Positions 2,395 to 4,210 of a DNA stretch of 64,000 nt are shown piece after piece; position 1 is the first letter of the stretch; every line of letters begins with the position of its first letter. Below the pieces are notes generated by a model. The model did no database searches. It was not told the DNA's origin and saw only the letters and a list, made by a program, of their open reading frames with translations. Source of the DNA: Mucilaginibacter achroorhodeus. Lineage in GTDB: Bacteria > Bacteroidota > Bacteroidia > Sphingobacteriales > Sphingobacteriaceae. The stretch lies in contig NZ_VOEI01000001.1 of NCBI RefSeq assembly GCF_007846095.1, positions 868,001 to 932,000 on the forward strand. Direction: 5' to 3'. A program made the translations under genes and the position numbers.

Positions 2395-2901
2395 TCATTG
2401 CGGTTTTGTCATATTGCGGCGTCGCAAATAGTAATCAATAAAGAACAATCCCATTACCATATCAAAAAACAAAAATCCCTTTCCTATCGGGCCGGTGAAT
2501 ATCCCGTTCAGCTTATTTGCATTTAACTGTACCGGCAGCTCAACTTGTTTAACCACAGATGCCCCTGATGACCAATTTACTGTGCCTAACGTATAGGCAA
2601 GCATCGCCACCACAGTTATAATAAAGAAAGCAGCTATCCCCCAGATTATGCGACCATCGATACGAGCCTTTAATGGCTGCATCGCTTTTTCGGTTCTTAT
2701 AGCCTCCATTACATTGTAAGTAAAAGCCATTGGCGGCTCGTCAACTTCTGCCAACATAAACTCGTTATTTAGCTGCAGCAATTCATCGTACTTTCTACGA
2801 TAGATTTCATCTGTCGCAATCAGTTTCTCAATGGCCTGCTGTTCTTGCGGCGGGCAGCTGCCATCAATATAGTTCCAAAGTTTTTCTTCAATGCTGTTCA
2901 T
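2395..2901 (-). CDS. Anti-sigma factor-like membrane protein
   Basis: This 168-residue protein is encoded directly after the ECF sigma factor, and the two reading frames overlap by 4 bases (2898-2901), so translation is probably coupled. The N-terminal 80 residues are soluble and helical (EEKLWNYIDGSCPPQEQQ), like the sigma-binding part of zinc-less anti-sigma factors. A membrane helix follows (about 89-108, IIWGIAAFFIITVVAMLAYT), and a second hydrophobic stretch lies near the C-terminus before YYLRRRN. I see no HxxxCxxC zinc motif. The anti-sigma role is inferred from position and topology. Confidence 0.7.
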   Translation of the reverse strand: MNSIEEKLWNYIDGSCPPQEQQAIEKLIATDEIYRRKYDELLQLNNEFMLAEVDEPPMAFTYNVMEAIRTEKAMQPLKARIDGRIIWGIAAFFIITVVAMLAYTLGTVNWSSGASVVKQVELPVQLNANKLNGIFTGPIGKGFLFFDMVMGLFFIDYYLRRRNMTKPQ

Positions 2902-3479
2902 ATCAGTTCTTTAACTTCGTGTTTTAAATTGCGCTCCAGCTTTTCTTTCAAACGCTGGCGCGCCCTAAAAAGTTTAACCTTCACGGTGTTCGCCTCAATA
3001 CCCATCACCTGTGCAATCTCATCAAGCGATTGTTCGCCCTTGTAAAACATGGTGATTATTGCTGCATCATCGGGCAGTAATTGCTCAATAGCCTGGTTCA
3101 AATAAAAAGACCGCGACCTGTTTTCCGCGTTATTCTCATCAAAGCCGCCTGGCTTATTCTCTAATTGTAAAAACGTTTGCTCATCATCAATTGAAGACGT
3201 GTCCACCCGTTTCTTTCGTAGAAAGGTCATAGCAGTGGTATAAACAATGGTGTACAACCACGTGCTAAATTTAGATTGCTGCTGAAATGAATTTAACGAC
3301 CGATATGCTTTAACAAAACAATCCTGCGCCACTTCTTCTGCATCTTCGCGGCTTTTTGTAAAACGCAAGGCAAGCGTAAATACAAACCGTTGGTGGCGCT
3401 TAACCAGATCAGCATAGGCCGATTGGTTGCCATTGATAGTTTGTTGTATCAGTTCTATATCAGAAAGCTTGCTTTGCAT
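2898..3479 (-). CDS. RNA polymerase ECF-type sigma factor
   Basis: This 193-residue sigma-70 family protein has region 2 (LVKRHQRFVFTLALRFTKSREDAEEVAQDCFVKAYRSL, about 24-62) and region 4 (SLDEIAQVMGIEANTVKVKLFRARQRLKEKL, about 152-182). It lacks regions 1 and 3, as ECF factors do. The next gene encodes its probable anti-sigma factor. Upstream on its own strand lies TGTAACCTG, 15 bases, GTCA (3520 to 3493). The same motif precedes the divergent DUF6249 gene, which suggests the factor transcribes its own operon and that gene. The ATG at 3479 lies about 14 bases beyond the -10 part, so the leader is very short. Confidence 0.92.
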   Translation of the reverse strand: MQSKLSDIELIQQTINGNQSAYADLVKRHQRFVFTLALRFTKSREDAEEVAQDCFVKAYRSLNSFQQQSKFSTWLYTIVYTTAMTFLRKKRVDTSSIDDEQTFLQLENKPGGFDENNAENRSRSFYLNQAIEQLLPDDAAIITMFYKGEQSLDEIAQVMGIEANTVKVKLFRARQRLKEKLERNLKHEVKELI

Positions 3480-3492
3480 ATTACACCATCTC

Positions 3493-3520
3493 TGACTACA
3501 CTTTTCTGGACCAGGTTACA
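3493..3520 (-). promoter_or_regulatory. Putative ECF-dependent promoter of the sigma/anti-sigma operon
   Basis: On the minus strand TGTAACCTG (3520-3512) is followed after exactly 15 bases by GTCA (3496-3493). A -35 core GTAACC and a -10 core containing GTC are typical of ECF promoters. The same two blocks at the same spacing occur on the plus strand at 3720-3747. The rest of the 329-base region between the two genes is AT-rich and holds no gene that I can see. Confidence 0.65.
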
Positions 3521-3719
3521 CGCTAATTTACTTTATTAATAAAACAGTATCACATAATAATGAGCAAAGCATAAGGTAGCGCGATTGCTTATCTTTTGGC
3601 CATATTGCAAGAGCTTCTGATATTGTATTGTTTATAAACTCTTCTTGGCTTATTCACCACCCGTCACTTACTGCTAAGAAAACACATAAAGATTCTTCCG
3701 AAAATATTTTTATGCCGGG

Positions 3720-3747
3720 TGTAACCTGCTTAAAAATTATGTGGTCA
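3720..3747 (+). promoter_or_regulatory. Putative ECF-dependent promoter of the DUF6249 gene
   Basis: TGTAACCTG (3720-3728) is followed after 15 bases by GTCA (3744-3747), identical in blocks and spacing to the minus-strand copy in front of the sigma gene. The predicted transcript would start near 3754, leaving a leader of about 55 bases that contains the palindrome at 3758-3776. Confidence 0.65.
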
Positions 3748-3757
3748 TAGCATACAA

Positions 3758-3776
3758 ATACACCACGGTGGTGTAT
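3758..3776. promoter_or_regulatory. Perfect 9-1-9 palindrome (operator or leader hairpin)
   Basis: ATACACCAC, a central G, then GTGGTGTAT form a perfect dyad just downstream of the predicted ECF transcription start and 32 bases before the ATG at 3809. It could be the binding site of a dimeric repressor or a stem-loop at the 5' end of the mRNA. Confidence 0.5.
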
Positions 3777-3808: not shown

Positions 3809-4165
3809 ATGCCTGGAGAATTATTAATACCGATCTTAGTGCCGCTGGGCCTGTTTGCCATGATTTTTGGAATTGTATACATCAAAAACCGTGAACGCAT
3901 GGCGATGATTGAGCGTGGCATGGACCCACGCAGTTACAAACCGCAACCAGCCCCATGGCAGAACCTTAAATGGGGATTATTACTAATAGGTGCAGGTTTA
4001 GGGTTGTTTATAGCTTATTTGTTAGATTACACAGCATTTAAAGCAACCAGAGATGAGAACGAAGCCATTTATTTTGGCTTGATTGCCATTTTCGGAGGTT
4101 TTGGCTTAGTGCTCTCTTATGTTATCGAGAAAAAAGAGCTTTATAACAACCGGGACAAAGAGTAA
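3809..4165 (+). CDS. DUF6249-type small membrane protein
   Basis: This 118-residue protein has an N-terminal membrane helix (ILVPLGLFAMIFGIVYI, about 8-24), a charged loop with ERMAMIERGMDP, and two further hydrophobic segments (about 50-67 and 84-102) before a charged C-terminus. The phrase RERMAMIERGMDP is typical of the DUF6249 family seen next to or under control of sigma factors in Bacteroidota; its function is not known. It faces the sigma/anti-sigma pair and shares that operon's promoter signature, so it is a likely target of the sigma factor. Confidence 0.75.
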   Translation: MPGELLIPILVPLGLFAMIFGIVYIKNRERMAMIERGMDPRSYKPQPAPWQNLKWGLLLIGAGLGLFIAYLLDYTAFKATRDENEAIYFGLIAIFGGFGLVLSYVIEKKELYNNRDKE

Positions 4166-4181: not shown

Positions 4182-4210
4182 AAAAAAGCGCCTTATCGGC
4201 GCTTTTTTTA
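4182..4210. terminator. Bidirectional terminator between DUF6249 and DinB genes
   Basis: AAAAAAGCGCC (4182-4192) pairs perfectly with GGCGCTTTTTT (4198-4208) around a 5-base loop. T runs lie on both sides, so it can stop transcription from either strand. It touches the stop codon of the minus-strand DinB gene. Confidence 0.85.

Follow-up and report, generated by a model that had tools for sequence, protein, structure and literature searches.

The DNA between two divergent genes of Mucilaginibacter achroorhodeus carries the same short motif twice, once in front of each gene. One of these genes encodes an ECF sigma factor, the other a membrane protein of the DUF6249 family (PF19762), for which no function is recorded. 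The locus therefore raises the question whether the two motifs are promoters read by the adjacent sigma factor, so that the sigma factor, its membrane-bound partner and the DUF6249 protein would belong to one circuit, as an earlier note on this DNA had proposed. We investigated this notion in the window (the whole stretch of 64,000 nucleotides that was analysed), in the rest of the genome and in related genomes of the phylum. Our comparisons indicate that the two motifs are very probably promoters of the adjacent ECF sigma factor and that the three proteins very probably form a single circuit.

The divergent locus and its motif pair

The genes and the predicted promoter elements are as follows.

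2395..2901, minus strand: putative class I anti-sigma factor gene, 168 aa, overlapping the sigma stop by 4 nt
2898..3479, minus strand: ECF sigma factor gene, 193 aa, with sigma regions 2 and 4 only
3493..3496, minus strand: predicted -10 element of the sigma operon, GTCA; the gap between TGTAAC and GTC is exactly 18 nt in 95/95 loci
3513..3520, minus strand: predicted -35 element of the sigma operon, TGTAACCT; TGTAACC is invariant in 95/95 distinct loci
3720..3727, plus strand: predicted -35 element for DUF6249, TGTAACCT; without variation in 65/65 syntenic loci
3741..3750, plus strand: predicted -10 element for DUF6249, GTGGTCATAG; GT 97-99%, GTC 100%, A/T/A/G 90-100%
3809..4165, plus strand: DUF6249 (PF19762) membrane protein gene, 118 aa, three membrane helices

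The sigma protein matches Sigma70_r2 (E 1.8e-18) and Sigma70_r4_2 (E 9.3e-13) in Pfam and lies above the cut-off of TIGR02937; the solved structures nearest to it are E. coli sigma-E (5e-22), AlgU and SigW, and its nearest named relative is found in Mucilaginibacter conchicola (91% identity). Against NCBIfam NF058625, the GFO_1088/PG0214 ECF family, it reaches 86.4 bits, which is below the curated cut-off of 130. The DUF6249 protein is recognised by Pfam with 82.8 bits versus a curated cut-off of 33 (E 2e-23). Its gene is the only one of this family in the genome and is divergent from the sigma gene. The predicted model of the protein (pLDDT 86.6) places helices at residues 3-35, 49-76 and 85-117, and a fold search against the PDB returned no significant match.

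The motif TGTAACCTG-N15-GTCA occurs at 3520-3493 on the minus strand before the sigma gene (as TGTAACCTGGTCCAGAAAAGTGTAGTCA) and at 3720-3747 on the plus strand before the DUF6249 gene (as TGTAACCTGCTTAAAAATTATGTGGTCA). The coordinates, the 13 identical bases and the equal spacing reported in the earlier note all proved exact, and the likeness of the two sites extends beyond these 13 bases as GTnGTCAnAG. Such a pair arose in 0 of 100 shuffles of the window. The genome scan suggested there, TGTAACCTG-N14-16-GTCA, returned in all 4,277,435 bases (4.28 Mb) these two places only, both of them belonging to the module. A scan with a sigma-70-type consensus gave counts near the shuffled expectation, this consensus not being meaningful for the phylum.

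At the sequence level the sigma operon is thus preceded by an AAC-type -35 and a GTC/CGT-type -10 element; AAC/CGT boxes, a co-transcribed anti-sigma factor and positive autoregulation are the hallmarks of ECF systems (PMC8103513). The end of the sigma-side GTC is separated from the ATG by 14 nt in the window and by 10-17 nt in all 95 orthologues, and since the -10 GTC sits just before the ATG, a leaderless or nearly leaderless sigma mRNA is predicted. On the DUF6249 side the same distance is 62 nt in the window. A moderately conserved AT-rich block lies just 5' of the sigma -35 element, at 3521-3540 on the minus strand; it is AAATTTA-like, several relatives having TATATTTAC, and could be an overlapping housekeeping promoter of the TAnnTTTG type for basal expression.

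Conservation and co-variation of the two sites

The ortholog set comprised 95 distinct regions preceding the sigma gene, taken from Mucilaginibacter, Pedobacter and Hufsiella. TGTAAC-N18-GTC was present upstream of the sigma gene in all 95 distinct loci, and a second copy faced DUF6249, 53-88 nt before its start, in all 65 loci where this gene is divergent and near. The sites were located with the pattern itself, therefore the informative part of these counts is that every locus has one. On the sigma side the spacer bases vary widely, and TGTAACC and GTC are invariant. DUF6249 genes that have been relocated away from the sigma gene retain the motif (L150-L154, L159, L160 and L164); in one genome (G207) it is still present at a DUF6249 gene about 300 kb from the sigma gene.

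The association reaches far beyond these three genera. DUF6249 is present in 89 of 296 Bacteroidota genomes; most of its loci were examined, with about 3-5 kb fetched around each, and an ECF sigma gene was found near DUF6249, usually divergently, in 80 of 83 distinct further loci. Among the 68 divergent pairs the pattern TGnAAC-N17-19-GTC faced DUF6249 in 58, the sigma gene in 57 and both genes in 55, and the both-sided motif was obtained in 0 of 200 rounds of dinucleotide shuffling of the same pairs. For 13 of the 68 pairs one side or both had no match to the pattern; looser variants can be made out by eye in several of them, whereas L180, L184, L193 and others gave no clear picture. Where DUF6249 and the sigma gene share a strand (L173, L197 and L244), the motif stands ahead of DUF6249, and on the Spirosoma oryzicola plasmid NZ_CP089540.1 DUF6249 is divergent from a sigma-70 family gene and each of the two genes has the motif in front of it.

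Changes in one promoter of a pair are also matched in the other. The third base of the -35 element differs by lineage (T 46, A 7, C 1) and agrees between the two promoters in 54 of 55 pairs, so that the variants TGTAAC, TGAAAC and TGCAAC change jointly in both promoters. The sister species G036 and G051 have a second, paralogous divergent ECF-DUF6249 pair: at one of the paralogous loci (L233) both sides read TGCAACATTT...GTCTAA, which is of the TGCAAC type, and at the other (L234) both sides read TGCAAC-N18-GAC, GTC having turned into GAC with the 18-nt spacer kept. For the variable promoter bases the within-pair similarity was 0.63 versus 0.48 after permutation (the maximum of 5000 permutations being 0.54), in a comparison that leaves kinship in.

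Regulon size and other readings of the motif

The promoters could belong to this sigma factor and nevertheless be part of a wider regulon, reached through degenerate sites that escape a consensus search, as many ECF factors have weakly conserved sites. The looser pattern TGTAACC-N17-GTC matched 7 times in the genome versus 15 times for the reversed control pattern. Those of the five extra matches that were read lie mostly inside long genes (rpoB, two FtsX-type permeases and a long ORF in L120); one (L117) is about 100 nt upstream of a NAD-epimerase-like gene and lacks the extended motif. A profile built from 45 promoter sites (R1) scored the two promoters at 30.9 and 25.6 bits, and its next hit in the genome, at 15.4 bits, was a coding site. 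No convincing third promoter site was found in the genome with the strict pattern, the looser pattern or the profile. In 41 Mucilaginibacter genomes TGTAACCT-N16-GTC gave 133 matches versus 45 for the reversed control, and the excess of about 2.1 per genome equals the two sites of the module. The 16 flavobacterial genomes are alike: the strict pattern returned mostly the module's own sites and a control-like background.

Strict-pattern matches outside the module in relatives were checked for the absence of nearby module genes. One genome (G195) has two extra TGTAACCT-N16-GTC sites (L134 and L156) which are not beside module genes, look intact and stand in a promoter-like context (A-tract; GTAGTC); they are possible lineage-specific targets and speak for a wider regulon. 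Against it stand the profile scan of the own genome and the excess of about two matches per genome in congeners, so that we regard a wider regulon as unlikely, and on the sequence data the regulon is predicted to be closed, consisting of the sigma/anti-sigma operon and DUF6249. ECF factors often drive their own operon and a few targets; here the prediction is limited to the own operon and DUF6249, no convincing further site having been found in the own genome. The earlier note had also counted it against the proposal if the motif stood upstream of no other gene, and this half is formally what we found. However, chance is excluded by the evolutionary evidence, and because of the conservation across relatives the lack of a third site points to a closed two-promoter circuit.

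A third candidate, C8:174305 (L118), was rejected: it lies within the gene of an FtsX-type permease, and strings almost identical to it turn up in the genomes of several other species. The string TGTAACCTCTAT.GT...GTTGTC is near-identical in L118, G221, G212, G209, G136, G062 and G089, and judged from its coding context it is a recurrence of coding sequence that mimics a promoter.

One would argue that the motifs are promoters of another ECF sigma factor, or of several overlapping ones, so that the circuit is not private; at least 16 sigma matches were counted in the genome, and overlapping ECF regulons exist in other bacteria. However, the strict motif is found ahead of no other gene in the genome, other ECF genes included, and it changes along with the adjacent sigma gene from lineage to lineage as well as in the paralogous pairs. 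Thus we consider such sharing quite improbable. It is still harder to read the motif as an operator for a DNA-binding regulator common to both genes. Shared operators are frequent between divergent genes, but this motif is directional and non-palindromic, with one copy per gene aimed at that gene, and its AAC and GTC boxes stand at a fixed spacing of 17-19 nt behind an A/T tract, which makes the operator very improbable. That the sites are alike by chance, or that a short intergenic region was passively conserved, is a reading for which we found no supporting point; it is already refuted by the conserved sites of the orthologues, by the window and phylum shuffles (0 in 100 and 0/200) and by the retention of the motif after relocation of DUF6249 while the sigma-side spacer bases vary freely.

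The proposed circuit and its output

The 168-aa product of the gene that overlaps the sigma stop has no match in Pfam. Its layout comprises an N-terminal anti-sigma domain (about residues 1-74), a membrane helix at residues of about 85-103 and a further helix at about 138-160; the first helix alone passes a simple hydropathy threshold, and the second is below it, yet present in the model. A profile from 77 relatives of the protein finds RsiW with E 1.5e-7, and RseA and RsrA more weakly. The AlphaFold model is all-helical, with pLDDT >90 for residues 1-70 and four N-terminal helices (3-13, 18-30, 32-50 and 60-73), and the leading Foldseek matches are RsiW (probability 1.00) and the domains of MucA, RskA, RslA, ChrR and RseA. 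The Foldseek E-values are modest (best 0.07, all above 0.05), as is expected for a helical domain of 70 residues. Profile and model together support a class I anti-sigma domain of the RsiW/MucA/RseA fold, and the membrane anti-sigma-like partner suggested earlier is borne out by them.

An equivalent gene follows the sigma gene in 73 of 80 phylum loci, the remaining loci reaching the limit of the fetched DNA or stopping close to it. Two hydrophobic helices are present in 69 of these 73 relatives. The zinc motif HxxxCxxC is not present in the 168 residues of the window protein; it is found in 16 of the 73 relatives, one of which matches zf-HC2, and zinc and non-zinc forms are mixed within class I (PMC7406223). 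In PMC7406223 class I anti-sigma domains were assigned to only 6% of the ECFs of Bacteroidetes, therefore a pair that carries such a domain throughout the phylum is noteworthy.

The one-circuit proposal is thus upheld by the 95/95 and 65/65 conserved sites, the 18-nt spacer, the relocated genes, the co-occurrence across the phylum, the co-variation and the anti-sigma fold. In the circuit that we propose, TGTAACCT (-35) and GTCA (-10) would be recognised by the ECF sigma factor whose gene lies at 2898-3479. The first promoter would drive the sigma/anti-sigma operon, i.e. positive feedback together with its own brake, and the second, pointing the other way, would drive DUF6249. In the resting state the sigma factor would be held by the class I anti-sigma factor in the membrane; a signal at the anti-sigma factor would set the sigma factor free, and both promoters would fire. 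This signal would probably be a disturbance of the membrane and not a periplasmic ligand, since the anti-sigma relatives have two membrane helices with a short stretch between them.

The output of the circuit would be essentially one three-helix membrane protein, which may either protect the membrane or feed back on the anti-sigma factor. We give an even chance to DUF6249 being a membrane-protective effector; it may instead be a feedback modulator of the anti-sigma factor, a role to which we lean less, and some other function seems rather unlikely. It could also be, and we put this forward tentatively, that the circuit is a closed membrane-sensing one across the Bacteroidota, its entire regulon being the own operon and DUF6249 and its divergent promoters and sigma factor co-evolving as a unit. 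If this is true, the phylum would have in this circuit its counterpart of the compact Psp or Lia responses to membrane damage.

The module resembles sigma-E/RseA of E. coli and SigW/RsiW of B. subtilis in its RpoE-like ECF sigma factor, the adjoining membrane anti-sigma factor with a class I domain, the AAC -35 and GTC/CGT -10 boxes and the (here predicted) autoregulation of its own operon. Those systems have large regulons, whereas here two promoters are predicted. Anti-sigma factors of the RseA and RsiW type have one helix and periplasmic or extracellular parts; contrastingly, the relatives found here have two helices with a short part outside. Das/Dma of Bacteroides, in which an ECF21 sigma factor is paired with a dual membrane-spanning anti-sigma factor and the own operon is strongly induced on loss of the latter (PMC13088901), is likewise a Bacteroidota ECF sigma factor beside a membrane anti-sigma gene. 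However, Dma has a long tether and a C-terminal outer-membrane beta-barrel, and the 168-aa protein of the window has an all-helical model and ends after the second helix. The Bacteroidota ECF sigma factor SigP of Porphyromonas targets type IX secretion genes (PMC4800418), and the SM6 ECF promoter class of Flavobacterium psychrophilum has a CGT -10 box and includes one ECF/anti-sigma operon (PMC9723704). Our module differs from SigP/SM6, where the targets are type IX secretion genes and the motif proposed for SigP is unlike TGTAAC-N18-GTC.

Autoregulated ECF/anti-sigma systems are therefore a known kind. The tie of DUF6249 to ECF sigma factors across the phylum and the two-promoter regulon appear new, as far as searchable papers go: these mention DUF6249 in one unrelated plant paper only, and we found in them neither a TGTAAC-N18-GTC-type motif for Bacteroidota nor a link of DUF6249 to a divergent ECF sigma factor with a common promoter. 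A widespread family without a function would thereby gain a regulator and a testable role, and exact promoters for DUF6249 become available throughout a phylum in which most ECF factors are uncharted. Because the matched promoter pair of each lineage changes along with its sigma factor, the module also offers natural data on the specificity of sigma factors for their promoters, and it could serve as a compact autoregulated switch in Bacteroidota.

The DUF6249 side carries further elements.

3701..3711, plus strand: A/T tract AAAATATTTTT, UP-element-like, upstream of the DUF6249 -35 element
3730..3736, plus strand: spacer A-tract TTAAAAA, specific to the DUF6249 promoter
3758..3776, plus strand: 5'-leader hairpin ATACACCA-CGG-TGGTGTAT, a few nt past the predicted start site of DUF6249
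4182..4208, no strand assigned (listed on minus): symmetrical terminator-like hairpin AAAAAAGCGCC-GATAA-GGCGCTTTTTT, T-rich on both flanks

In 78 DUF6249 promoters a T-rich block is conserved at -13 to -9 before the motif, more weakly on the sigma side; spacer positions 14-17 hold A at 90-96%, a region not conserved on the sigma side, and the start region is strongly conserved (GTCATAGCTTACAAATAC). The sigma promoter has no upstream A/T tract, spacer A-tract or conserved start region of the same strength. The simplest reading is that the DUF6249 promoter would be the strong output and the sigma promoter the weaker feedback.

A leader stem with a score >=7 was found in 65% of 88 DUF6249 leaders versus 10% of shuffles, and the mean MFE was -5.1 versus -1.9 kcal/mol. 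The pairing is kept and the sequence depends on the lineage: CACC..GGTG and TCGCC..GGCGA (L106) in Mucilaginibacter, GAAC..GTTC in Pedobacter, GATC..GGTC in Hufsiella. Its likeliest role would be that of a transcript-stabilising 5' stem-loop. An Rfam search of the leader gave sub-threshold matches only, around the terminator. The DUF6249 unit ends at the terminator-like hairpin at 4182-4208. Across the phylum a close same-strand ORF lies 3' of DUF6249 in 27 of 79 loci, several of these being the sigma gene itself, and no common downstream gene was seen in the 79. In two distant genomes (L176 and L185) a predicted lipoprotein gene lies between DUF6249 and the sigma gene; the first 90 aa of each gave no match in Pfam. 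At L251 two tandem DUF6249 genes adjoin one ECF sigma gene.
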